This document shows positions 25,476-63,368 of a DNA stretch of 64,000 nucleotides, piece by piece. The translations under genes were made by a program, and so were the position numbers. This DNA comes from Methanobrevibacter gottschalkii DSM 11977. Its GTDB lineage: Archaea; Methanobacteriota; Methanobacteria; Methanobacteriales; Methanobacteriaceae. The stretch is taken from the NCBI RefSeq assembly GCF_003814835.1, contig NZ_RKRG01000002.1, positions 1-64,000 of the forward strand, given 5' to 3'. Within the stretch, counting starts at the first letter, position 1. Each line of letters starts with the position of its first letter. The notes beneath the pieces were generated by a model, which was given only the letters and a program-made list of their open reading frames with translations, made no database searches and was not told the DNA's origin.

Positions 25476-26504
25476 TTAGTAATATCCTTCTTCATCTTCT
25501 TCTTCAGCAGGGGTGCGATCTATTTTCTTAATTCTATCAATTTTCGCATTAATTTTATCTATACCTTCTCCTTCGATTGCTGATATAAATATTGAATTTT
25601 CTTCATCATCAATGTATTCTTTAAGGTATTCTGCATCTTCAACCAAGTCCATTTTGTTAAATAAATATATTACTGGAATTTCTGAAAATATTTTTTCTAT
25701 CTGTTTTAAAAGATTGTATTGATTGTCCAGGTGGAATCCGCAAGTCTCAGATCCATCAAAGATAAATAATATTGCATCAGCTAAATGTTCTAGTGCAACA
25801 ATAGCATTCATTTCAATATCATTCATTTCTAAAACAGGCCTGTCAAGAAGTCCCGGTGTATCAATAATTTGGATATTTTTCCAGTGTCTTTCAGTATGCC
25901 CAATCTGGATACCTTTTGTTGTAAATGGATAATTTGCAACTTGGGGATCTGCTCCTGTAATCTGTCTGAGCAATGTTGACTTACCTACATTAGGAAAACC
26001 GGCAATAACAATTGTAGTGGCATCAAAATCAATTGTTGGCATATTTCTTAAATTCTGTTTTGCAAAGTCTAGGAAATCTAAGTCTTTTTTGATTTTGTTT
26101 ACAACAGATGCAATTCTTCCATAAGCTTGTTTTTGAATAGCAGTTGCTCTTTCAGAAGGATTTTTCCTAATTTTTGAACCATATTCCTTTTCAAGTTGGG
26201 TTATTATACCATATGCCCAGTTAAGAGCACCTAATGCCTGTTTCATATCGTCCACACCAACTGTAATATCAATATAATCCTGATAAAAGGGATGTAAACT
26301 TTCAATTTCAGGAACTGCATCTAAAATTGATTTTAATTTATCTTTAATAACTTGACAAGAGGTTACCACTCTTCTTTCCTCAATTCTTTTACCTTTCAGA
26401 TGTTTAGGTATTTTTTGACCTCTTAATAAGTCTGCTTGTTTTTTACCTCTGCTGAATCCTTTATCAAGTAATTCTTGTGGTGTAGGTATTGTTGGAATCA
26501 TCAT
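25476..26504 (-). CDS. NOG1-family GTPase, ribosome assembly
   Basis: The 342-residue protein has a helical N-terminal NOG1 domain (residues 1-160) and an Obg/NOG-type G domain: G1 GFPNVGKS (169-176), G2 region YPFTTKGIQIGH, G3 IIDTPGLLDRP and G4 LFNKMD. It ends with an acidic tail EEEDEEGYY. NOG1 proteins bind the large ribosomal subunit during assembly. The gene is monocistronic and is the last clearly housekeeping gene before the mobile region. Confidence 0.9.
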   Translation of the reverse strand: MMIPTIPTPQELLDKGFSRGKKQADLLRGQKIPKHLKGKRIEERRVVTSCQVIKDKLKSILDAVPEIESLHPFYQDYIDITVGVDDMKQALGALNWAYGIITQLEKEYGSKIRKNPSERATAIQKQAYGRIASVVNKIKKDLDFLDFAKQNLRNMPTIDFDATTIVIAGFPNVGKSTLLRQITGADPQVANYPFTTKGIQIGHTERHWKNIQIIDTPGLLDRPVLEMNDIEMNAIVALEHLADAILFIFDGSETCGFHLDNQYNLLKQIEKIFSEIPVIYLFNKMDLVEDAEYLKEYIDDEENSIFISAIEGEGIDKINAKIDRIKKIDRTPAEEEDEEGYY

Positions 26505-26700
26505 TATATCACTCTAAATATCAGTTGCTTATATGCTTTCTCTCTCAACCTTTCTATACTATAGTTTAGATTTGGCAGGTTAATTAAATTTGTGGATAAG
26601 GTTGTGATATTTCAGTGGGTATATTATTTGTTTTATATAATGGATATAATAATAAATTAGGTTAGAGTTTTAACCGATAAAATTATAAAAAAAGTATTTT

Positions 26701-26797
26701 GAGATTAGAGAACCCCAATGCCGAAATAATGTCTCCTCCCGTGGAGACGAAGCTTAGAGAGGCTGAACTTCTAGAAGTTTTTACCTCCAGAATCTAC
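26701..26797 (+). ncRNA. Candidate structured non-coding RNA
   Basis: This is a GC-rich island in very AT-rich intergenic DNA. It folds on paper into a three-way arrangement: outer stem AGATT (26702-26706) with AATCT (26791-26795), hairpin GTCTCC/GGAGAC (26731-26736 with 26743-26748, loop TCCCGT), and a second stem GAGG/CCTC enclosing AACTT-CTAG-AAGTT. A TATA-like TTATAAAA (26683-26690) lies about 20 nt upstream, appropriate for its own promoter. It has no coding potential. I cannot match it to tRNA, SRP, RNase P or a clear box C/D or H/ACA RNA, although it ends in an ACA. Confidence 0.55.
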
Positions 26798-26943
26798 AAT
26801 TAAATATATGTAATATCAGCCATAATAAACAATATTAAAAAGATGTTCAAAAAGATGATATAACAATTAAAAATCCAGATTTCCTAAATTTATGAATTGT
26901 AATATAAGATAATATTGGTGGGGGGATAATCATTAATCAGACA

Positions 26944-29900
26944 ATGTTAAAATTAGAATCAATAGAATCAAGCATATTTGAGGAGCTATCGAACTCAATA
27001 ATTTATTTTCAATATGGTATTAATATAATTTCGACTGGACTAAATCGGGAAGGAAAACCTATAAAATGTCCTATAGATGCAATTGGAACTATAAAAAATG
27101 ATGATAAAACTGAGTTTGTATTTATTGAAGCAACTACAACACAAGTTAATAGTTTAAAAGATAAATGGTTAAGTAAATCTGATGATAAACCTGGTGACAT
27201 AATTAAAACATATAAAAAGGCAAAAGAATTTTTTAATCTAAATAAAAATTCTTCTTTTAAACTATTTTTAATGACAAATAGAGATTTATCTGGGGATAAA
27301 GGTTTAGATTTAATAACAGAGGTTGAAAATGAAAATTTTGATATTCCTTTAAAAATTGAAATTATGGAACAAGGGTCAATAAAACAATTCTTAGATTATG
27401 ATAGTGATGGACAATATTTGAGAAAAAAATTTCTACAAATTGATGTTGAAAGGTTATCTAAACCGTTGTTGCATAAAATTTGTGATGAAAACCTGCAAGC
27501 ATATGAAAATTTCATTAACACAACGGGATTTAATAATTTAATTGAAAGAGAGGAGCTACCTTCAATTGAAAAACATATCAGTAATAATAATTTGTCTTTT
27601 TTAATTGGAGAATCTGGATATGGCAAAAGTGTAATTTCTTTTCAAATACTCAAAAGACATATTAATAATGGAGGATATGGTTTGTGGATATCTGAAGAAT
27701 TTTTAAAAAATTCTTCTAATTTAAATTATACATTAGATGAACTTTTACATCAATATTGTCCAAAATTAGAAAAAAATAGTGGATTTAAAGCATTAAACTT
27801 TAATTCCAATGATAATTTTTTATTGATTTTTGATGATTTGAATAGGAGTGAAAATCCTAAAAAATTAATTGATAAAATCATTAATTGGTCGAAAAATATT
27901 AAATCGGGTAAAGAAAATACTGATGAAAATTATCATGATAAAATCCGGCTTATTTGTCCAATTTGGCAAAAAAATATGAAAAATTATGGTAGTAATCTAG
28001 ATAACGATTCAAATATAATCATAGAAAAACTAAAAGATGAAGATGGGATAAAAATTTTAAAAAACACAGCCAAAGACAAAGGCATTGTCTTGTCTGATTT
28101 AGAAGTAAAAAATTATCTAAAAAAATTAGATAATGATCCATTTTATATTGGTCTTTTTATCTCAGAATTAAATAAATTCAAAAATTGGGATGATTTAATC
28201 AATAATGCATTTCAAATTTTCTTAAATCGAAAATTTGAAGAATTAGATGAAGAAGAATTTTTACCTCAAGATTATGAAAGAATTCTATTAAAATTATCTC
28301 AAAATATGTTGGAAAATTATATATTAACCCCAAATCTACTTGAAATTGATTCATGGTTTGTCAGTGACAGAGATAAAAAAATTTTAAGAATATTAATTAA
28401 AGATAGAAAAATATGTTATTTAAATAATAATCAAAACTTATATTTTATACATGATAGGATAAAATTTTATTATTTGATTAGCGCATGTACAAAAATAATT
28501 AATGATAATCCTCAATCTGAAATATTCAAGGAACCTTTCTATGCAGAGATAATTGGTGCTTCATTGTATAATATTGGTAAAAATAAAAAATTTATAGAAT
28601 TTCTAGCAAACAATAACCTTTTAGCTCTTTTTGCATCCATAAAATATATTGATGATGCAAATGAAAACTATGAACAAATTTTAGGAATATTGACTGAATG
28701 GTCAAATGAAAAACATGAATCATATCCAAGCTTTCAAGAAGAAGTTGTCAAAACTTTATATACTTATGATTCTGAATTGGTTGTAACTCTATTGGGCAAT
28801 ATTAATTCTCTTTTTACCAGTATTCCTTGTTTTAGAAATGGATCAACAATACATGGTATAAAAAAAGCACTAAATATATTTGGATACAATTATCCATTAT
28901 TTAAGCAGACAATAGAACATGTTAAAATTCATTATAAATCTAAAATAATTGAAGATATAAAAAGAATATTGTCGTCTGATAAACTAGATGATGATTTATT
29001 ATGCGGTACCTTTTTATTAGCAGGATATTTAGGATTTGAAGAATTAGAAGAAATCATAAAATCTTCAGTTAAGTTATTTGAAATTAAAGAAGATAATTTA
29101 TATATTATCCTTTTTGCAGCATTTAGGTGCATAAATAATGATATGGATTTTATTAAGAATCTTTTAGAAAAATGGGACATGTTTGGAAAAAAAGATGATG
29201 AAATTCGATTTCCATTTATTGAAGAACTAAGATTAACTTTTAGAGATTACCCTGTAACTGATAATGTTTTAAATTACTTAGGCTTTAACTTTCAGGAATT
29301 TTCTAATATAAAACATTCAATATGGTATATTTGCAGTGAATTAAATAAACCACTATCATTTAAAATGACTTTAGATTATCTTTCCGATAATGAGTATTTA
29401 TTTGATATACTTCCATTTTTTAGAAGAATTCAGATATCTTCAGAATCTAGAATTTTTTTAGAAAACTATTATAAAAAAGAAGATATAAAAGGTCATTCTA
29501 AAAAATATGCGTTTAGATTATGGGCAATGAATTGTAATGAAAATGATCTTCCAAAATTACAAAAAATTGACAAAGATAACATTCTTTTTTCTGAGTCTCT
29601 AATCACTAGAATTAGATTAGGTGACTTAACGGCGTTAAATTCATTTATTAAAAATTTCGATGAAAATGTGGTTTTGAATGAAATCCATAATGTTTGGAAT
29701 GATGAGGCAAAATTATTTGTTGAAAAATGTTTTAAAGATATGGAACTTAATGAAAATAAAGAAATTCAGGATGGATATGACTATGTGCATTTAATGCAAT
29801 GTCTTGCAAAAATACCGTTAGAAGATGCAGAATATTACATAAAACAATATTGGGATAAAATTAAATATTACAGAATATTCATACAATTAAACTTTTATTT

Positions 29901-30459
29901 ATGCACAAATTTAAGCATTGGATTAAATAATGAGTTATTTGTTGAAATTAAACCAGATGAAACATTGTTTGAACATTTTACAATAAATTTCTTATATATG
30001 GAAGGATATGATAAATTTTCAACAGAGTCTCATTTTAATGAAATAATACAATATTTGGTTTATTTTAAAAATTCTGATCTTGATTTAATATTTAGAAAAG
30101 CTGAAGAATTAGGGTATTGTCGATGGATAAGAAAAGCATGTCGAAATTTAGATAAAAATCAATTTTCTAAATACTGTAAAACAGATAAAAACATAGTTTC
30201 TGATATGGAATTGTATGATAATTATAGTTTTTGGCAAATAAATTTTGAAAATAACTGCTTAAATAAAAATAGGATAAATAATATATTAAGACTATATTTA
30301 AATAATAATCAAAATATTGAATCATTTATTAATGTTGCAAAATTTATTAAAGAAAATGGAAATCGTGATGATTTAAAAATATTATTTGAGTCTAATATTA
30401 AAGAAGATAATATGCTGTATGATGTTGAGTTTAGTGTTAAATGCAGAACTTTAGATTGA
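26944..30459 (+). CDS. Nuclease-like domain fused to a STAND-type NTPase (Avs-like defence protein)
   Basis: The 1171-residue protein has three parts. Residues ~1-170 resemble a PD-(D/E)XK restriction-like fold, with PIDAIG (Asp45) and FVFIEATTT (Glu62), although the usual lysine is a threonine. Residues ~210-560 form an NTPase with Walker A GESGYGKS (222-229) and Walker B LLIFDDL (Asp297-Asp298). The last ~600 residues are helical repeats of irregular TPR-like type. This nuclease-STAND-repeat order is that of Avs-type antiphage proteins that recognise phage proteins and then cleave DNA. A GGTGGGGGG site lies about 17 nt before the ATG. No partner gene is adjacent. The family assignment is inference from architecture. 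Confidence 0.7.
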   Translation: MLKLESIESSIFEELSNSIIYFQYGINIISTGLNREGKPIKCPIDAIGTIKNDDKTEFVFIEATTTQVNSLKDKWLSKSDDKPGDIIKTYKKAKEFFNLNKNSSFKLFLMTNRDLSGDKGLDLITEVENENFDIPLKIEIMEQGSIKQFLDYDSDGQYLRKKFLQIDVERLSKPLLHKICDENLQAYENFINTTGFNNLIEREELPSIEKHISNNNLSFLIGESGYGKSVISFQILKRHINNGGYGLWISEEFLKNSSNLNYTLDELLHQYCPKLEKNSGFKALNFNSNDNFLLIFDDLNRSENPKKLIDKIINWSKNIKSGKENTDENYHDKIRLICPIWQKNMKNYGSNLDNDSNIIIEKLKDEDGIKILKNTAKDKGIVLSDLEVKNYLKKLDNDPFYIGLFISELNKFKNWDDLINNAFQIFLNRKFEELDEEEFLPQDYERILLKLSQNMLENYILTPNLLEIDSWFVSDRDKKILRILIKDRKICYLNNNQNLYFIHDRIKFYYLISACTKIINDNPQSEIFKEPFYAEIIGASLYNIGKNKKFIEFLANNNLLALFASIKYIDDANENYEQILGILTEWSNEKHESYPSFQEEVVKTLYTYDSELVVTLLGNINSLFTSIPCFRNGSTIHGIKKALNIFGYNYPLFKQTIEHVKIHYKSKIIEDIKRILSSDKLDDDLLCGTFLLAGYLGFEELEEIIKSSVKLFEIKEDNLYIILFAAFRCINNDMDFIKNLLEKWDMFGKKDDEIRFPFIEELRLTFRDYPVTDNVLNYLGFNFQEFSNIKHSIWYICSELNKPLSFKMTLDYLSDNEYLFDILPFFRRIQISSESRIFLENYYKKEDIKGHSKKYAFRLWAMNCNENDLPKLQKIDKDNILFSESLITRIRLGDLTALNSFIKNFDENVVLNEIHNVWNDEAKLFVEKCFKDMELNENKEIQDGYDYVHLMQCLAKIPLEDAEYYIKQYWDKIKYYRIFIQLNFYLCTNLSIGLNNELFVEIKPDETLFEHFTINFLYMEGYDKFSTESHFNEIIQYLVYFKNSDLDLIFRKAEELGYCRWIRKACRNLDKNQFSKYCKTDKNIVSDMELYDNYSFWQINFENNCLNKNRINNILRLYLNNNQNIESFINVAKFIKENGNRDDLKILFESNIKEDNMLYDVEFSVKCRTLD

Positions 30460-30494
30460 TTGAATATAGTCAATGCCGTCAATTTAAGAATTTC

Positions 30495-30545
30495 GGGGGT
30501 GTCCGATAATTATTTGATTTCAAATCTTCCTTTTTTTATTTTTAA
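30495..30545 (+). repeat. IS-end-like repeat, copy 1
   Basis: GGGGGTGTCCGATAATTATTT begins a stretch of about 50 bp that closely matches 53690-53740 in the same orientation (both read GTGTCCGATAA, then T- and A-rich sequence with a run of seven T). The GTCCGAT core is also in the ends of element B (804-827). These look like termini left by related insertion sequences. Confidence 0.45.
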
Positions 30546-30580
30546 ATCAACAATTATGTCGTCCTCAATTATGAAATCTT

Positions 30581-31838
30581 TTTAGGGGTCTGAATTTTTT
30601 TGGTTAAAATTCGGTCAGATTCATTTTATTTTTCTTATTTTTCATATTTATTTTTGATGGTTTTTAAAAATACGTTGTAATTATTATTTATTTTAATAAA
30701 AAAGGTCTTAATACTAATAAATTTAAATATTACGTGTTACAAATATTTATTTGGCGATAAAAATGAAACACAGATTAAATTTAGATATTAAAGATCCAAA
30801 TTATACTTTGTTAACAGAAATATTTAAAATTAGGGATTGTAGAGAAAGCTTTGAAATTTTATCTTCATTTGGCTTAAAAAACCTGGAAACAAGTATTTAC
30901 TTTTAAAATCATATTTATTAGCATATTTTTTGGTTTAGATATTCCATTCATCCTAAGTGAACTTGAATCTAAAGAAAAACTTCGTAAATACTTTAATTTT
31001 TCTAAAGTTTGGAGTGCAGATTAAGTTTATAAAACTTTATCACTCCAAGATTCAGAAAAACTCATGAAAGCATTAAATTGTATTCTAAATTCAAGAAATC
31101 GTGTTAAAAGAAGAGGAAAAAAGATTTTCATTGTTGATGCAACACCAGTGGACTTAGATTTTAATTTTAATCGAAATAAAAAGACAAAAGAGTAGCTCAA
31201 AACATTGAATTTAAAATGGAGTTATTCTTCCTCCAAAGGATTTTATATTGGATTTAAAGCAACTGTTGTCATTGATTATGATAGTATTAATCATGTTTGT
31301 ATTTTAATCCATTTTGGAGCGCTGGGTGATGCAAAACTTTTTGACGAAATAATGGAAAACCTACAAAAAAGACAAATAATTCAAAAAGAGGACACATTAA
31401 TTCTTGATAAAGGATATTACAGCTATGAAAATTACCAAATTGGAATTAGCAAATATAAAATCGTTCCTTTCATTTTTCCAAGAGACAATTTCAAAAGAAA
31501 TAAACTCAATGGCCAATTATCATACCCATTGCAGACATTTAAGAAAACAAAGAAAATCATAACTGAAAAAAGATTCTACGACAATTTAAAACATGAATTA
31601 CTAAAAAAACTAGACAATTGGAAGAAATTCAAACCAATCGAGGAAAAATAGAAGGCTTTTTCAAATTACTCAAACAAGGACTCAACATGAGAGAAATACA
31701 CAAATACACACCAAAATCAGTTGAAAAAACAGTATATCTAAATGTATTTTTAGGAGCCCTAATCATATCACAAGGATACTACTCAAAAACGGCCATACAG
31801 CAATTATCTGAGAACTAAAAAATTCAGACCCCTAAAAT
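30581..31838 (+). mobile_element. Degenerate IS4/IS5-like element with inverted ends
   Basis: TTTAGGGGTCTGAATTTTT at 30581-30599 is mirrored by its inverted complement near 31817-31835. Between these ends lies a plus-strand transposase gene broken by stops and frameshifts. The element is about 1.25 kb, a normal IS size. I could not see a convincing target duplication. It separates the STAND gene from the first phage gene. Confidence 0.75.
30763..31818 (+). pseudogene. Degenerate DDE transposase (IS4-like)
   Basis: Joined frames begin MKHRLNLDIKDPNYTLLTEI, pass through IFIVDATPVDLDFNFN (first catalytic Asp), then ATVVIDYDSINHV, ILDKGYYSYENY (second Asp) and RGKIEGFFKLLKQGLNMRE (the Glu). This is the D-D-E order of IS4-type transposases. 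There are stops at about 30904, 31022 and 31193 and frame changes near 30903 and 31630, so it cannot make a full protein. A trans-acting intact copy elsewhere could still mobilise it. Confidence 0.8.
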
Positions 31839-31947
31839 ATTTTCATCTCTTCCCCGCCACTAATTTTTCTGTTTCCATTAATTTTATTACTTATTTTATA
31901 TAAAAAATATAATAAATAATATAATAAAAAAATATGAAATGATTATT

Positions 31948-33249
31948 ATGGGAATTACTGATTATATTAAAACTAGATTATTGAATAATCGTGTGGAGCA
32001 GTATAACACTAAGCGCAGCTATTGTGGTGAAGATGAAAGACAACCTAGAACTGATGGAATCAACACTGGCCTTGACTTGCCTGATGCACTTCCGCCAGTT
32101 ATTAATAAGACAATAACTAATGCTCGTTATGCTGTTAAACTTGACGGTTACACTTCAGGTATCTTGAAAAATAGAATTGATAAAGCAAATGTTAATATGG
32201 TGCTTGTTGATAAGGAAAATAAATTATCTCAAGAGCAGAAGTTGACTTTAATTTTGTGGGCGAGAAAAATTGACATTTCTCAAGTAGCTAAAAATATTCT
32301 GCAAGGTGGAATGGTTGATGGGGAAGGTTTAATTAAACCTGTACAACGTTGGGATAAAAGCATTGGCAAATACATTAAACCGGTATTTTTAGAAATAGGC
32401 GCACACGGTTATGGATTGAAAAAAGAATTTAATGATGATAATGAAGTGCAGCTATATCTTCATGAAATGCCTAAGGATATTGTTAATGGATCTCCGGAAG
32501 AGTTTGATAATTATGTTAGTGTCGAAGAGGGAACATTAACGGTCAAGTACGAACCTGAAGAAGTTATTAACTTCATGTATAATGAGATATACTGTGAAGC
32601 TCAAAGCATTATCCTAAATTGCCTTGATGATATATACCACAAGTGCAATTTGGAACGAAATCAAGTGGAACGTATCAACAAGGATAATATTATTGAAGTA
32701 AAGCCTGCGATGGATGCAAACGGCCAACCTTACATCACCGAACTTTCAAGCACCGCTAAGGAAAATCTTTATGCTGATTATGGAACTACTGCCGGAAGTA
32801 ATGTAGCTATTGTGCCTCCAGGAATTGAAAGTAAAATCCTTGGTGGTAACAACTACCAGTCTGACTATACAAGACAAACAGAAATCTTTAGGAATAATAT
32901 CTTAAGGACTTTTGTAACTCCTCAGTCTCAAGCAGGTAATGAGAAGTCTAATCAGAACGTTGCTGAGTACATTAACGATTCAGCTATTACAGGATTCATT
33001 GTTAATGTGGCCAACGACCAGAAATGGGTGTTAAAGTATTGCAATCAGCTATTGAACTTGCAGTTGGAGTTAATGGGCATCAGTGAAACTTTAGATATAT
33101 ATTTCAGCTATTCAAGAGATGATGTTTTAAGATACATTATGGAACTTTCTTCCGAAGGTGATGAAATCTATAAGAATTATCTCAGTAACTTTGAAGAAGA
33201 GCAGCCTGTCGGTGAAAGGATTTTAAGTGAAAATGGTGTGGAGGTATAA
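31948..33249 (+). CDS. Phage portal protein
   Basis: The ~433-residue protein resembles SPP1-Gp6-type portal proteins. Features include the N-terminal MGITDYIKTRLLNNR, a YAVKLDGYTSGI segment, an acidic loop region, and the conserved C-terminal half with SNVAIVPPGIESKILGGNN and TFVTPQSQAGNEKSNQNVAEYINDSA. Portals form the dodecameric ring through which DNA is packaged. I favour the ATG at 31948; an ATG at 31939 is possible. No ribosome-binding site is visible, and a TATA-rich phage motif lies immediately upstream, so the mRNA may be nearly leaderless. The terminase that should precede it lies 30 kb to the right. Confidence 0.8.
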   Translation: MGITDYIKTRLLNNRVEQYNTKRSYCGEDERQPRTDGINTGLDLPDALPPVINKTITNARYAVKLDGYTSGILKNRIDKANVNMVLVDKENKLSQEQKLTLILWARKIDISQVAKNILQGGMVDGEGLIKPVQRWDKSIGKYIKPVFLEIGAHGYGLKKEFNDDNEVQLYLHEMPKDIVNGSPEEFDNYVSVEEGTLTVKYEPEEVINFMYNEIYCEAQSIILNCLDDIYHKCNLERNQVERINKDNIIEVKPAMDANGQPYITELSSTAKENLYADYGTTAGSNVAIVPPGIESKILGGNNYQSDYTRQTEIFRNNILRTFVTPQSQAGNEKSNQNVAEYINDSAITGFIVNVANDQKWVLKYCNQLLNLQLELMGISETLDIYFSYSRDDVLRYIMELSSEGDEIYKNYLSNFEEEQPVGERILSENGVEV

Positions 33250-48707: not shown

Positions 48708-48843
48708 ATTTATTTATATATTTTTTATATTAAATAACACTTTTGATTTATTTTAATAGTTAAAAAAGTAACACTTAAATATCATTGGGTAGATATTATA
48801 TACTAGATAATACAGAAATATAATTTGCATAAAAGTGGTAATT

Positions 48844-49845
48844 ATGATAAAAGTTATAGAATTATGTGCCGGTGCAGGCGGGTTAGCACTTGGATTTGAA
48901 AAAGCAGGTTTAGAACATGAGGTGCTTGTTGAAATTGATAAAGATTGTGTGGCAACACTTAATAAAAATAGACCTGATTGGAATGTACTTCATGCAGATA
49001 TAAAAGAAGTTGATTTCACACAGTACCATCCAGATATAGTTGTAGCAGGACTGCCTTGTCAACCATTTTCTTACGCTGGTAAAAAATTAGGATTTGATGA
49101 TACAAGAGGAACATTATTCTTTGATTATGCAAGATGCATTAAAGAAACTAATCCAAAAATGTGCATAATAGAAAATGTAGAAGGTTTAGTAAGGCATGAT
49201 AAAGGGCGAACAATGGAAACAATAGTGAATGTATTGGAAAATGAATTAGGTTATGATGTTCAATATAAAGTCCTAAATGCAGTTGACTATGGTGTAGCAC
49301 AAAAAAGAAAAAGAATGTTTCTTGTAGGAACTAAAAAAGGAATAATATTCAATTATCCTAAAAAAGTTAAAGGTAATCCTGTGCTTCGTGATGCCCTTAA
49401 AGATGTTCCGGAATCAGAAGGAACTGAATACTCTGATAAGAAAAAAGAAGTACTTGAGTTAGTTCCACCTGGAGGATGTTGGGTTGATCTTCCAGAAGAT
49501 GTTCAAAAAGAATATATGGGTAAAAGCTTCTATTCTGGTGGTGGAAAACGAGGTATGGCAAGAAGAATCTCATGGGATGAACCATGTTTAACATTAACCA
49601 CTTCACCATGTCAAAAACAAACAGAAAGATGCCATCCAGAAGAAGTAAGACCATTCACAGTAAGAGAGTATGCAAGAATACAATCATTCCCCGATGACTG
49701 GGAATTTGAAGGCGGAATAACTTCTAAATACAAACAAATTGGAAATGCAGTACCAGTTAAAGTTGCTGAAGCAGTAGGAAAAGAAGTTATCAAAGCATTA
49801 AATGGCGAAAATAAAAGAAAAGAAGGTCAAACAACTTTATTTTAG
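48844..49845 (+). CDS. Type II DNA (cytosine-5-) methyltransferase
   Basis: The 333-residue enzyme has all canonical m5C motifs: I (IELCAGAGGLALGFEKAG), IV (GLPCQPFSYAG with catalytic Cys72), VI (ENVEGL), VIII (QKRKRMF), IX in the target-recognition region (LTLTTSPCQKQTERCHPEE) and X (QIGNAVPVKVAEAV). It is the protective partner of the convergent Eco47II-like endonuclease, whose 3' end it overlaps by 4 bp; a GGNCC target is plausible. The ATG at 48844 is preferred over a GTG at 48835. The promoter region carries TATATACTAGAT near 48800. Confidence 0.93.
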   Translation: MIKVIELCAGAGGLALGFEKAGLEHEVLVEIDKDCVATLNKNRPDWNVLHADIKEVDFTQYHPDIVVAGLPCQPFSYAGKKLGFDDTRGTLFFDYARCIKETNPKMCIIENVEGLVRHDKGRTMETIVNVLENELGYDVQYKVLNAVDYGVAQKRKRMFLVGTKKGIIFNYPKKVKGNPVLRDALKDVPESEGTEYSDKKKEVLELVPPGGCWVDLPEDVQKEYMGKSFYSGGGKRGMARRISWDEPCLTLTTSPCQKQTERCHPEEVRPFTVREYARIQSFPDDWEFEGGITSKYKQIGNAVPVKVAEAVGKEVIKALNGENKRKEGQTTLF

Positions 49846-50570
49846 TCTTTAAATATTAGTTGTTTGTACTTTTCAAATACTACTTGGTCTTTTGGAGTTA
49901 AAATATGTTTACTCTTTTTAATATCATTTATTGCATTTGGAAGTGCATCAAATAATTGTTCAAAAGCAGTTTCATCTCCAGTGACTAATGTATAAACATC
50001 TTTTCCAGCAATATTTCTAATATTATCATTTATTTCATGTACAACATTTTCTTTATTGTCTCTATACACCCAAGTTTTATCAAATGATTCATAATTTTGT
50101 GAAACTATATACGCCCAATATATTTTAGCATTTGGATATTTTTCAGCTAATTCTTCACATTTGAATCGAGTATCTCTTAAAGAACTTGAATTCATTGTAT
50201 TGTATTTATTTTTTAATTCAATCCATATTGTATCATCTTCTTTTTTCAAGTCCATTCCGGATGGATGACCTCTTCCAAGATTTACCCAACCATCAACACG
50301 ACCTAAAAGATTCTGGTGGAAATCACCAACACGATTACTTGCAGTTTTATCATGTTGTCTTGGAATTTCAAAATTAATCCATTCACTTAAGCTGAATCTA
50401 TTTGAATAAATATCAAATAATGTTTTAAATTGGTCAATAGTTTCTCTACTATTGCTTAAAACTTCCCAAGGTGTTTTTGATAAATCTTCATCCGTTGCAT
50501 AGGCATCTACAACTTTTTTTACTTCTTCTAGAAATATTTCATCTGAAACAAAAGTTACATATTTATTCAT
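49842..50570 (-). CDS. Eco47II-family Type II restriction endonuclease
   Basis: The 242-residue protein contains VGDFHQNLLGRVDGWVNLG, then GHPSGMDLKK...IWIELKNKYNTMNSSS, which matches the catalytic core of Eco47II/Sau96I-type enzymes (acidic residue plus ELK). These cut GGNCC sites. The start MNKYVTFVSDEIFLEEVKKV at 50570 is preceded by GGGTGC. It converges on the methylase and overlaps it by 4 bp, the compact tail-to-tail arrangement seen in many Type II systems. Specificity is inferred from family. Confidence 0.88.
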   Translation of the reverse strand: MNKYVTFVSDEIFLEEVKKVVDAYATDEDLSKTPWEVLSNSRETIDQFKTLFDIYSNRFSLSEWINFEIPRQHDKTASNRVGDFHQNLLGRVDGWVNLGRGHPSGMDLKKEDDTIWIELKNKYNTMNSSSLRDTRFKCEELAEKYPNAKIYWAYIVSQNYESFDKTWVYRDNKENVVHEINDNIRNIAGKDVYTLVTGDETAFEQLFDALPNAINDIKKSKHILTPKDQVVFEKYKQLIFKD

Positions 50571-50792
50571 AATTTGCACCCAAAGTAATTATTACATCAT
50601 GTTATGTTTATTTTGTTTTAAAGCATTTTCGTTATTGTACGATAAGTACCCAAATATTGATGTAATCCAAATCGTGTTTTGGAAATGGTTAAATTCTAAC
50701 TTCCACTAAATTTTAAAAAAAGTAGCTATTATATATAAATCTTTATATATTATAAGTAATAAATTATATAATAAATTAAGTGGAGGACATTT

Positions 50793-57158: not shown

Positions 57159-58646
57159 ATGTTTAAAGAGGGCATTAATACAATTATAATTGAAAGTTAT
57201 GATGAACTGGCATGTATTATAAAAGGAAAACATGAAAAGAATAAAATGGACCTTCGTGAAGATTTTATATTTTGGGGATTATCAAACATCGAATATGAAT
57301 TAATTCCTTCTGCTTTAAGAAGAAATAAGTTAAATCAACTTGAAATTAATGAATTAATTGAATCTGATCACATATTTAAAGTTTCAATTGATGAAAATGA
57401 TGCCAAAATGTTTAATTTAGAATATTCTGAATCAATAAATGATGGTGAAGTTATAATTGGAGTAGATAAATATGGGAATCTGATTCATGATGTGAAATCT
57501 GATTATAAAGTTTTAGAATGTGATTTGCAAAGAGAAAGAGAAAATTATCTTCTATTAAAATTTTTTAATTGTGCAGATAAATCTGGTTTGAAAGTTAAAT
57601 CAGAAGGATTTTTAAGAGAGTTGATTCATAATTATTCTTCAAAACGATTAGAAGAGTATTGGTTGGATTTTGATATTTTAGAAACTATATCCTTGGCTCA
57701 ACATTATGGTTTGCCGACTAAAGCTCTAGATTGGTCTTATGATTATAAAGTTTCATTATATTTTGCTGTAAAAGATGTAATTGAATCTAATTTGTCTTCT
57801 GATGGAGTATTGTGGGCCTTAAATTATAAATTAATTGAAAACCATAATTTTAATGAGGAATATTATGTTAATTTACATATTCATAGGCCGGAATATAATA
57901 CAAATCCTAATTTAAATGCTCAAAAAGGATTATTTACTTTTTTAGAAAGATATGTTGGAGATTATGACAAACCATTAAACAAAATAATTTCTGATGAATT
58001 AAATAAAACTCTTGACCAAATGCCGTGGGATAATCTTTATGAATCTAAAATTAGGACAATTCCGGATGATATATCTAAAAATGATACGATTTTCTATAAA
58101 TTTATTATTCCTAAAGAAATTAAACAAAATATTTTAAATGAATTATATTTGGAGGGTTATTCTGAAGAATATTTATTTCCCGGATATAAAGGAGTTTGTG
58201 AATCAGTAATTAATAGAGTAAAGTTAAATGAGATATTAAAAAATAATGATGAACATATTAAAAAGAGCATATTATTGTCCGTGGACTGGAATTTAAATGA
58301 AATTATAAATAAAAATCAACTTTATGTATTTGTAAACTTGGATTTTAAAGAAGAAATTGATAAAATCTTTATTTACCATAATAATGATGTTGTAGGTTAT
58401 TTTAGAGGAAATGAAATAATTAAAGATTCACTAAATGTGTTATGGGAACAGTTTGGGGAACATTCAGGTTTATCTGAAGATAAATTTGATGAGTGTTTTA
58501 AAGGTAATGATGAATCATTTGCAATTAGAATTAATGATTTAAATATTTTTAAGCATTCAATTAAATTGTGTGACTTTGAATTGGAGAATGATTTTTGTTT
58601 TGTTGAGGATAATGAAGATTTAAAATTTTTATTGAATTTTAATTAA
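57159..58646 (+). CDS. FRG-domain protein, third gene of the cargo operon
   Basis: The 495-residue protein carries an N-terminal FRG domain: FIFWGLSNIEYELIPSALRR (in place of the usual YRGQ...L.PS..R) and LAQHYGLPTKALDWSYDYKV then SLYFAVKDV, the family's QHYGLPTRLLDWT...LYFA core. FRG domains occur in phage and defence loci and are of unproven biochemistry. The C-terminal ~250 residues are unassigned. AAGGGAG precedes the ATG, and only 25 nt separate it from the previous stop. Confidence 0.8.
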   Translation: MFKEGINTIIIESYDELACIIKGKHEKNKMDLREDFIFWGLSNIEYELIPSALRRNKLNQLEINELIESDHIFKVSIDENDAKMFNLEYSESINDGEVIIGVDKYGNLIHDVKSDYKVLECDLQRERENYLLLKFFNCADKSGLKVKSEGFLRELIHNYSSKRLEEYWLDFDILETISLAQHYGLPTKALDWSYDYKVSLYFAVKDVIESNLSSDGVLWALNYKLIENHNFNEEYYVNLHIHRPEYNTNPNLNAQKGLFTFLERYVGDYDKPLNKIISDELNKTLDQMPWDNLYESKIRTIPDDISKNDTIFYKFIIPKEIKQNILNELYLEGYSEEYLFPGYKGVCESVINRVKLNEILKNNDEHIKKSILLSVDWNLNEIINKNQLYVFVNLDFKEEIDKIFIYHNNDVVGYFRGNEIIKDSLNVLWEQFGEHSGLSEDKFDECFKGNDESFAIRINDLNIFKHSIKLCDFELENDFCFVEDNEDLKFLLNFN

Positions 58647-58730: not shown

Positions 58731-59549
58731 ATGTCAGATAATAAAAATAATAATATTAGTTGGACAAGTTTTTGCCAAGCTATGAATTCCATAGCATACT
58801 GGCTACTCCAAAATAAAAAGAAGTATAAGAAACGTGACCATTACCAAATATTAACGTTAAAAGGTAGTTGTAGCGATATAGAAAAGAAAGCGAAGAAATT
58901 AGGAAACGATAAACTAGTATCAATGTATACAATGGCTTTAATCAAAGATAATACATCTTTAGATTTCCTTCCAAACTATGTAACATTAAAGAACGGAGAA
59001 CAAATTGATAAAGCCGAATATGTAGATATGGCCATAAGGACAGAAGCATATATCAGAGCAAATAAAAGACTTCCGGCTATTGTATATAGAATGTCAACAC
59101 TTCCAGATTACAAAGATTCCACAATGAAGCTATTTATCAATGTATTCAACTTCAAAGGAAATACAATCGATGAAGCATTAGCTATTATATCAAAGATGAA
59201 ATTATATAGTAAATACTTCGATTCACAAAAAACAGACAAGAAAACAATCAATGATGCTAGTCTGGGTAAAGGTTCAAATTGTGTAGACTGGGGACAAGTA
59301 TATTATCGTATAGCGAAATCATTAGGATATGATGTACAATTTGTCCATGTCAAATGCCGTGTAAGTGGAACTGGCCATATAAAATTAAGATTAAAACATA
59401 AAAAACATACTGGAGGAAACTGGATTAACCGTGATCCTGCTGCAGTTGCGGATACCACTTCAGGAAATGTTAAATCAATCTGGTGTGAAGATGGTTACCT
59501 CATAGCATATGATCCTTCCTGGATATTCACAGATTTATATAGCAGTTAA
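58731..59549 (+). CDS. peiW: Pseudomurein endoisopeptidase (phage lysis enzyme)
   Basis: The 272-residue protein has an N-terminal pseudomurein-binding repeat (LKNGEQIDKAEYVDMAIRTE, then ANKRLPAIV). A C-terminal transglutaminase-like cysteine-protease domain has Cys184 (GSNCVDWGQVYYRIAKSLGYD), His216 (GTGHIKL) and Asp235 (NRDPAAV), the catalytic triad of PeiW/PeiP. It cleaves the epsilon-Ala-Lys isopeptide bond of pseudomurein to lyse the host. The choice of peiW over peiP is not decisive. No ribosome-binding site is visible, and TATATATAAATAATATAAT runs right up to the ATG, so the mRNA may be leaderless. Confidence 0.9.
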   Translation: MSDNKNNNISWTSFCQAMNSIAYWLLQNKKKYKKRDHYQILTLKGSCSDIEKKAKKLGNDKLVSMYTMALIKDNTSLDFLPNYVTLKNGEQIDKAEYVDMAIRTEAYIRANKRLPAIVYRMSTLPDYKDSTMKLFINVFNFKGNTIDEALAIISKMKLYSKYFDSQKTDKKTINDASLGKGSNCVDWGQVYYRIAKSLGYDVQFVHVKCRVSGTGHIKLRLKHKKHTGGNWINRDPAAVADTTSGNVKSIWCEDGYLIAYDPSWIFTDLYSS

Positions 59550-61156: not shown

Positions 61157-61969
61157 ATGGGTCGAGGAAATTCAGATATCATATATTTTTTAGAACAGCA
61201 TGAACAGGAAATAATAAACTGCTGCAAGAAGGGAATGAGCAACAATGAAGTCATTGAACTATTAAAAACAAAATATGGTCGTGATGTAGCAGATATTACT
61301 TATAGAAAATTCAAGGCGGGTTTAAATCTAACAAAGAGTGATTTCCTGGAAACATTGTTGGATGAGATAATGGTCATGAAGACATCTGGTGCAACAGATG
61401 CAAATGTCAGGCGATGGCTGGAAGAGGAACATGAAATCGAAGTGAGCAGATCCACATTCTCAAGATTCAAAAAGAAATATCACATAACAGATAAAGAAAA
61501 AGACCCAAGGGCAAGAGATAAAGATTCATTAACAAATAGGGCAATCACTCAAGGCCAAATTATAGACAATGAAGTTCACACAGACAATATCGACTTAGCT
61601 ATTGATACAATACTTCAGCAACAGGTTACTGATATCAAAACGGGTCTTGACAATCTTGACAAGATTACCAAAAATGCTGTGGGTATTGAAATTGACTTTG
61701 CAAAGCTCGACCAGGAAGTAAGATACAATGCCAACGAAAAAAGTCTGGCAAGATACCTGATTGATTTAACAGAATTAAAAATAAGATACTTGGAATTATC
61801 AGTTAAAGCATTTGAAGCTAAAAACAGGCTGTTCAAGGATGAAATGGATAGGCTATTTAAAAATAGAGTTCTTGAACTGGAAGACAAAAAGATTGAAATC
61901 TCACAAAAAGACATCATGAATGAAATAGAAATCCTTGCAAAACAAATTGATGATAACAATGTACAATGA
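61157..61969 (+). CDS. Terminase small subunit-like protein
   Basis: The 270-residue protein has two helix-turn-helix-like segments near its N terminus (NCCKKGMSNNEVIELLKTKYG and TSGATDANVRRWLEEEHEIEVSRSTFSRF), followed by long charged helices. DNA-binding N terminus, helical C terminus and position right before the large subunit fit a small terminase that recognises the packaging site. AGGAGGGAACCT precedes the ATG. Its end overlaps the large terminase gene by about 20 nt. Confidence 0.75.
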   Translation: MGRGNSDIIYFLEQHEQEIINCCKKGMSNNEVIELLKTKYGRDVADITYRKFKAGLNLTKSDFLETLLDEIMVMKTSGATDANVRRWLEEEHEIEVSRSTFSRFKKKYHITDKEKDPRARDKDSLTNRAITQGQIIDNEVHTDNIDLAIDTILQQQVTDIKTGLDNLDKITKNAVGIEIDFAKLDQEVRYNANEKSLARYLIDLTELKIRYLELSVKAFEAKNRLFKDEMDRLFKNRVLELEDKKIEISQKDIMNEIEILAKQIDDNNVQ

Positions 61970-63368
61970 GAACAACGAATTCTATTTGGATGCTAGGGAT
62001 AAAGTTATTCTTCAGAAATGTGTGTATGAGAATCCATATATTCCATTCTCTCCATTTCCAAAGCAGGCCGAAATGATTTTAGCTAGAGAAAAGGAAGTCC
62101 TGATTGGTGGTGCTGCAGGAGATTCCAAATCAACAAGTCTTTTGATGAGGGCATTGTTCTATGTTCAGGATGACATGAATGAATACCATGCCCTCATCCT
62201 GAGACGTACATTATCTGACTTGAAGCGTAAAGGAGCTTTAATTCACAAGGCAAGTCAATGGTTAAATCGAAAGGAAATTCAAAATAATGCAAGTATCAAA
62301 CCGAAGTGGGATGGAACCGAACACTCATGGACATTTCCCAATGGAAATTCATTAACTTTCGGATATTTACGTAACATTAATGACCTTGATACATATCAGG
62401 GTTCCGAATACCAGTTCATAGGAATTGATGAGCTGACACAGTTGGAGAGGTTTAAATATATCTATATGAGGTCAAGAGTTCGTAAGACCAAAGACAATAA
62501 GCTTCCAACACAACTGATGGCATCAAGCAATCCGGGTAAGCGTGGAAACAAATGGGTGCGTGAAAGATTCATAGAAAAAATAGACACTGACATTCAGGAT
62601 AAATCACAAATAAGATTCATTTCATCCAGCTACTTGGACAACATCTATCTAGACAGAAACGACTATGAAGAATATCTTATGGGATTAGATAGAGTAACAA
62701 GAGAGCAATTAATGAACGGTAACTGGTATGCCTCAGTCAAAGGCCAGTTATTTGATGAATCAGACTTCCACATAATCTCTCAAGATGAATGCCTGAAAAT
62801 ACCAATCGTTAGAGTCATCAGATACTGGGATCTTGCAACTACAGAAGTATTGAACGATGACAAATTGAGAGGAAGTGATCCGGATTATACTGCTGGTGTT
62901 TTATTAGCTAAAGATCTAAACGGTAATATCTACATTTGGGATTCATATGAATTTCAGCTTGAGTCAAGAAACTTGATCAATGAAATACTGAACACTGCAG
63001 CACGTGACAAGTCAGATGTACAGTATATTGAACTCGATGGAAGCACAGGTAAAAACTTCGGATTATTAATCATAGATGAGCTTAACAGAAGAGGATTCAC
63101 TACAGGTACTGGTAACTCAAGAGAAAATAAAGTTGACCGTGCAAGAAGAGTTTCAGCAGATATTCAGAAGAACGGAATATTTCTGGTTGGGAAGGATAGA
63201 ACAGGGTTTACGAAAAAATGGGCCATGGAATTTCTGGAAAAAATTACTGCTTATCCAAATGAAGCCATTCATGATGACTGTGTGGTGGCATTTACTGGAG
63301 GATATGAAAAAATAGTTGCAGAAAAACAATCACAAAGAGTTAATGTGGATAAATGGTATTCCACATGA
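61950..63368 (+). CDS. Terminase large subunit
   Basis: The ~472-residue protein has an N-terminal packaging ATPase: Q motif PFPKQAEMILAREKEVLIGG, Walker A GGAAGDSKSTSLLM, Walker B FIGIDELTQ and the coupling motif ASSNPG. The C-terminal RNase-H-like nuclease has IRYWDLATTE, VQYIELDGSTG and AIHDDCVVAFTGGYE (three acidic residues). It drives DNA into the capsid and cuts it. The start is taken at 61950; 61959 is also possible. The domain looks intact. In most tailed phages the portal gene follows; here host-like sequence follows. Confidence 0.9.
   Translation: MITMYNENNEFYLDARDKVILQKCVYENPYIPFSPFPKQAEMILAREKEVLIGGAAGDSKSTSLLMRALFYVQDDMNEYHALILRRTLSDLKRKGALIHKASQWLNRKEIQNNASIKPKWDGTEHSWTFPNGNSLTFGYLRNINDLDTYQGSEYQFIGIDELTQLERFKYIYMRSRVRKTKDNKLPTQLMASSNPGKRGNKWVRERFIEKIDTDIQDKSQIRFISSSYLDNIYLDRNDYEEYLMGLDRVTREQLMNGNWYASVKGQLFDESDFHIISQDECLKIPIVRVIRYWDLATTEVLNDDKLRGSDPDYTAGVLLAKDLNGNIYIWDSYEFQLESRNLINEILNTAARDKSDVQYIELDGSTGKNFGLLIIDELNRRGFTTGTGNSRENKVDRARRVSADIQKNGIFLVGKDRTGFTKKWAMEFLEKITAYPNEAIHDDCVVAFTGGYEKIVAEKQSQRVNVDKWYST

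Follow-up and report, generated by a model that had tools for sequence, protein, structure and literature searches.

The window, a 64,000-nucleotide stretch of the Methanobrevibacter gottschalkii genome, contains a gene (positions 26944–30459, forward strand; hereafter the STAND gene) that, with a probability of about 75%, encodes an Avs/NLR-type antiviral sensor-effector acting as a one-gene system. It is cargo of an archaeal provirus and occupies a variable slot bounded by the provirus left end and the putative portal gene. Proteins of the Avs/NLR kind are known, and our best reading is that the family described here is a little-described, Avs-like single-gene defence family. The reading frame was open from the ATG to the stop codon over 1171 residues, and relatives of the protein were mostly full-length. 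Asp45, Glu62, Thr64, and the Walker A and Walker B motifs listed in the original prediction, which was made from the DNA letters alone, were each found in the translation; the open frame and the retention of every motif ruled out a decayed gene.

The AlphaFold2 model of the full-length protein (pLDDT 85.5, pTM 0.71) showed, in order, a nuclease domain (residues 9–164; 26968–27435), a STAND/NACHT-like NTPase with a helical region including a predicted winged helix (residues 205–520; 27556–28503), and an all-alpha solenoid of about 45 helices, the presumed sensor (residues 526–1168; 28519–30447). The predicted folds and the conserved NTPase motifs described below bore out the nuclease–STAND–repeat architecture proposed earlier. 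Comparison of the full model with the PDB gave Avs4 bound to the PhiV-1 portal (8dgf) as the best match (E 1.8e-10), followed by NLRP2, NLRC4, NLRP7, and NOD2, and the effector–STAND–repeat architecture and overall structure were accordingly Avs-like. Global TM-scores against Avs4 and the NLRs were low, about 0.19–0.35, as expected because the model is flexible and multi-domain.

The central region contained the Walker A motif GESGYGKS (residues 222–229; 27607–27630) and the Walker B motif LLIFDD (residues 293–298; 27820–27837), both supported by the family alignment. Across the 37 aligned members, SGxGK was conserved at about 95–100%, Asp298 at 100%, and Asn300 at 97%, and Cys-Pro 338–339, Asp-Pro 398–399, and His-Asp 503–504 were also near-invariant; these motifs are therefore not a chance pattern. 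The STAND protein alone matched NACHT in Pfam below threshold (E 0.031), and members of the family matched AAA_16, AAA_22, nSTAND3, nSTAND_NTPase5, NACHT, and NB-ARC. A Walker A motif, a Walker B motif of the hhhhDD type, a NACHT/NB-ARC-like module, and a predicted helical/winged-helix extension together place the region in the STAND superfamily. In the C-terminal part, HEAT_2 was detected by Pfam in three members. Most close pairs were less identical in the C-terminal half than in the nuclease domain (31–38% versus 76% for L003/L010, 67% versus 84% for L021/L025, and 58% versus 72% for L002/L004), as expected of a sensor; in L005/L006 and L035/L037, the C-terminal half was not the more divergent part.

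The N-terminal model was predicted with high confidence (pLDDT 92.4, pTM 0.87) and adopted the PD-(D/E)XK-like fold that had been proposed for it. It consisted of a helix (residues 9–24, containing Glu13), strands at 46–52 (after Asp45) and 55–64 (ending in Glu62-Ala-Thr64), helices at 68–76 (containing Lys74) and 85–99 (containing Asp85 and Lys88), and a strand at 103–111. Foldseek matched this model to MspJI, BstEII, R2 endonucleases, EcoO109I, Avs4, Card1, BamHI, and FokI; weaker APOBEC matches interspersed among these were taken as chance. The domain thus belongs by predicted fold to the PD-(D/E)XK superfamily. The canonical combination of a motif II Asp with a motif III (D/E)xK was absent, since motif III reads [E/H/Q/A]-[H/A/F]-T beside an invariant Asp45, and we filed the domain as a non-canonical variant of the fold.

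Conservation in the 37 members delineated the probable active site. Glu13 (motif I, core helix 1; codon 26980–26982), Gly32, Asp45 (motif II, start of core strand 2; 27076–27078), Lys74 (27163–27165), Gly84, and Asp85 were invariant, and Lys88 was conserved at 95% (Gly84-Asp85 to Lys88, start of the next helix; 27193–27207). In motif III (Glu62-Ala63-Thr64; 27127–27135), Thr replaced the usual Lys in 36 of the 37 members (97%) with Ser in the remaining one, and position 63 was His in 92% and Ala in the STAND protein. The replacement of Lys by Thr noted in the original prediction was therefore real, although as a trait of the whole family that accompanies an invariant Lys74 and not as a defect of this copy. 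Glu62, in turn, is not conserved: it was Glu in only 8 members and His, Gln, or Ala elsewhere.

A precedent for such a site exists in the DUF1626 nucleases, in which the motif III lysine is often Thr and has probably moved into the helix that follows core strand 3 (motif IV), and lysine migration to the following helix has likewise been proposed for DUF506 and DUF790 (PMC1913061). Because Thr is fixed across the family, an invariant Lys74 lies in the corresponding helix, and DUF1626 offers this precedent, the lysine site has probably been rewired, with Lys74 as the relocated catalytic lysine of an active effector nuclease. The earlier suggestion that the effector may be inactive is unlikely, since the altered site is invariant among 37 divergent proteins, and this invariance ruled out an inactive effector as the first choice. 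In a broader form of the suggestion, a degenerate, inactive REase-like domain would sense nucleotides or bind DNA while a partner protein kills. The canonical motif III lysine is missing in 37/37 members, Glu62 is variable, and inactive REases paired with NTPases have been discussed as nucleotide sensors (PMC12839542). Nevertheless, we consider this quite unlikely: invariance of Glu13, Asp45, Lys74, and Gly84-Asp85 at 20–30% identity is unlike an eroded site, the nuclease domain is at least as conserved as the rest of the protein in most close pairs, and the loci of relatives share no conserved partner gene.

With the STAND protein as query, PADLOC (a version dating from 2023) returned nothing and NCBIfam no relevant match; the sequence search of the PDB gave no useful match with the protein and only weak, scattered matches with the family profiles. 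A translated search of plasmids recovered seven relatives with 20–27% identity over most or all of the length, from Halobacteria, Cyanobacteriota, Campylobacterota, and Pseudomonadota. When 84,980 species genomes were scanned with a pattern derived from a five-row alignment subset, the eight-row alignment being too divergent for this purpose, 33 further loci came to light, distributed over Pseudomonadota, Myxococcota, Cyanobacteriota, Latescibacterota, Bacteroidota, Chlorobiota, Actinomycetota, and others. The resulting alignment of 37 members, mostly full-length and with 20–30% identity to the STAND protein, defines a family of archaeal and bacterial proteins that carries no library name. Within the phylum of the window, the STAND protein occurred in 1 of 152 genomes, and horizontal acquisition of its gene is therefore most likely. 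The tree grouped it with proteins from Halobacteria, cyanobacteria, and Pedobacter; its branch is long and lacks close relatives, which leaves its exact place unsure. A 187-residue ORF (L042:4250–4813) comprised the nuclease domain of the family with no STAND part downstream and lay near a gene homologous to one at the locus described below that Hma genes flank; the nuclease domain may thus also exist alone.

Relatives were located in defence-rich neighbourhoods. HmaA and HmaB flanked a relative on both sides at L021, with homologous genes at L025, and a Hachiman helicase lay next to a relative at L026. Other neighbours included Gabija-, OLD-, AriA-, and AbiLi-like genes, and those of the plasmid relatives included Shedu, Lit, TIR, and AbiEii genes. 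In total, the PADLOC families matched at E ≤ 1e-10 numbered 168 for a set of 121 neighbour proteins and 63 for 121 control proteins (families and not proteins were counted); the control was small and rough, its proteins coming from arbitrary contigs in six of the genomes that supplied the neighbours. No partner gene was conserved across the loci of relatives, which argues that the family is a one-gene system.

The STAND gene had been placed at the edge of an adjacent prophage, and we found it to lie inside the provirus. In genome G066, NOG1 comes immediately after the AMMECR1 gene, an arrangement that represents the empty site, and in the genome of the window these two genes are 48.3 kb apart. 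The provirus is bounded by ATCATCATT at 26497–26505 and by ATCATCATT at G000:C2:74791–74799, with an integrase (C2:73597–74721) just within the right end. At the left end (26497–26596), the core ATCATCATT is joined by 92 bp (26505–26596) that are 100% identical in a sibling provirus of G070 (L102:6037–6128), where they are also preceded by ATCATCATT. In that sibling, the stretch from the left end to the portal gene contains two different genes (435 and 595 aa). A location outside the prophage was ruled out by the empty site and by this shared left end; together with the different genes of the sibling, they identify the STAND gene as provirus cargo.

The cargo slot extends from about 26597 to 31870 and also contains an IS element with a broken DDE transposase (30579–31838), located between the STAND gene and the putative portal gene (31939–33249, forward strand), which forms the right border. 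At the corresponding place upstream of the portal gene, other sibling proviruses carried different genes, namely an OLD-family ATPase with a UvrD/GajB-like helicase (Gabija-like, directly upstream; L120:1543–5022, reverse strand) and, by eye from sequence, a KAP NTPase, an SF1 helicase, and a DUF4263-like protein, the last without a PDB match. Differing defence genes in sibling slots are what is expected of hotspot cargo, with few siblings available and both borders shown in L102 only. Of the two phage proteins that had been attributed to the neighbouring prophage, the terminase (61935–63368; phrog_979, E 4e-80) was certain and belongs to the same provirus, whereas the portal is putative, on the basis of a sub-threshold Pfam match (E 0.056), its location next to TerL on a viral contig, and its conservation in sibling proviruses.

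Several further features of the provirus were observed. Of the 130 genomes of the taxonomic family, 36, including that of the window, had a match to the putative portal gene, many copies showing 90–99% identity; copies were often several per genome and occurred in other genera too, which would fit a provirus family that is very active or has recently spread. The first 47–66 portal residues, or fewer, were found alone in G046:C98, G050:C63, G097:C5, G051:C37, and G046:C39 (L053:10844–10906), and these resemble provirus scars or duplicated ends. Gene order differs between the element here (31939–63368) and viral contig L085: TerS–TerL directly precedes the portal gene in L085 and lies at the far end of the element here. 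The provirus also encodes a cytosine methyltransferase (48835–49845) and a type II restriction enzyme (49842–50579; PADLOC REase_II, E 5e-39), which by their matches are a second defence system, a protein (57159–58646) that matches the PADLOC candidate families PDC-S15 and PDC-M11B, and a pseudomurein endoisopeptidase-like lysis gene (58731–59549; phrog_37889) that fits a Methanobacteriales host.

Given its location in a provirus, the STAND protein could instead regulate the provirus or the host, for instance in induction control or signalling, as STAND proteins act in signalling too and the release of a gene transfer agent is controlled by a CARD-NLR-like system (PMC13236601). This is highly improbable, because relatives are not tied to proviruses, neither the protein nor the family profile having found a relative in the viral contigs, and instead occur in defence-gene surroundings, on plasmids as well as on chromosomes, in many phyla. 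A search of phage records likewise recovered no relative.

The identification as an Avs protein stood with respect to architecture and structure and did not extend to sequence: neither the PADLOC nor the NCBIfam Avs models matched the STAND protein, so that no Avs1–5 profile recognized it, and the PADLOC Avs models matched none of its relatives. The Avs4 model NF041815 had no match in the whole genome, and Avs4 proteins were found in 0 of 274 genomes. The sensitivity of these profile searches is unproven, as no Avs-positive control genome scored strongly. It is unlikely that the protein is a true, diverged Avs4 or another Avs1–4 type that senses terminase or portal, even though Avs4 was its best whole-chain structural match, also matched the N-terminal domain, and shares the domain order. 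Besides the unmatched models, the STAND protein has 1171 residues as against 1579 model positions, its nuclease motif differs, and a terminase or portal trigger would attack the carrier at induction, as both proteins, the portal putatively, are encoded in the provirus that carries the STAND gene. Prophage defence systems are reported to spare their own prophage (PMC11087260). Since self-sensing would harm the carrier provirus at induction, the local terminase and portal are not the default expectation for the trigger.

For the antiviral sensor-effector that we favour, we infer a working mode like that of Avs and NLR proteins. The C-terminal alpha-solenoid would bind a protein of an incoming virus, and ATP binding by the STAND module would then lead to oligomerisation. 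The N-terminal PD-(D/E)XK domains clustered in this way would cut DNA and halt the infection, probably sacrificing the cell. In the nuclease site, presumably composed of Glu13, Asp45, and Lys74 together with Asp85 and Lys88, Lys74 would substitute for the canonical lysine of motif III. We see even odds that the family constitutes an Avs type of its own, with a distinct viral trigger and with the lysine relocated to the next helix, that occurs in both bacteria and archaea and has been disseminated by archaeal proviruses via the portal-adjacent slot. If the favoured reading is true, an NLR-like immune family of broad distribution has escaped present defence libraries, receptors of this sort pass between archaea and bacteria, and the archaeal provirus slot is a place to find further defence systems. 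Two questions also become testable: the target recognised by the sensor, and the ability of a migrated lysine to sustain catalysis in an immune effector.

Among known systems, the STAND protein resembles Avs4 (AVAST type 4; 8dgf) in having an N-terminal PD-(D/E)XK-type nuclease, a central STAND NTPase, and C-terminal helical repeats, and differs in its shorter length, the lack of a sequence-profile match, and a nuclease motif with Thr at motif III and an invariant Lys74. With the mammalian NLRs (NLRC4, NOD2, and NLRP2) it shares a STAND/NACHT module between effector and repeats, but the effector is a nuclease instead of a CARD or PYD and the repeats are HEAT-like and all-alpha instead of LRRs. 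The replaced motif III lysine and its proposed migration to the following helix are shared with DUF1626, where the substitute is Thr, and with DUF506/DUF790; no sequence relation to these families was detected, and unlike the STAND protein they have no STAND fusion as far as stated in PMC1913061. P2-like phages have a defence hotspot beside the portal gene, and P2/P4-like hotspots in general consist of a small variable cargo slot with differing defence systems, among them STAND proteins that begin with a nuclease domain (PMC9122126); the slot described here, as far as the few siblings examined indicate, is comparable, but belongs to an archaeal provirus and lies at its left end when integrated.
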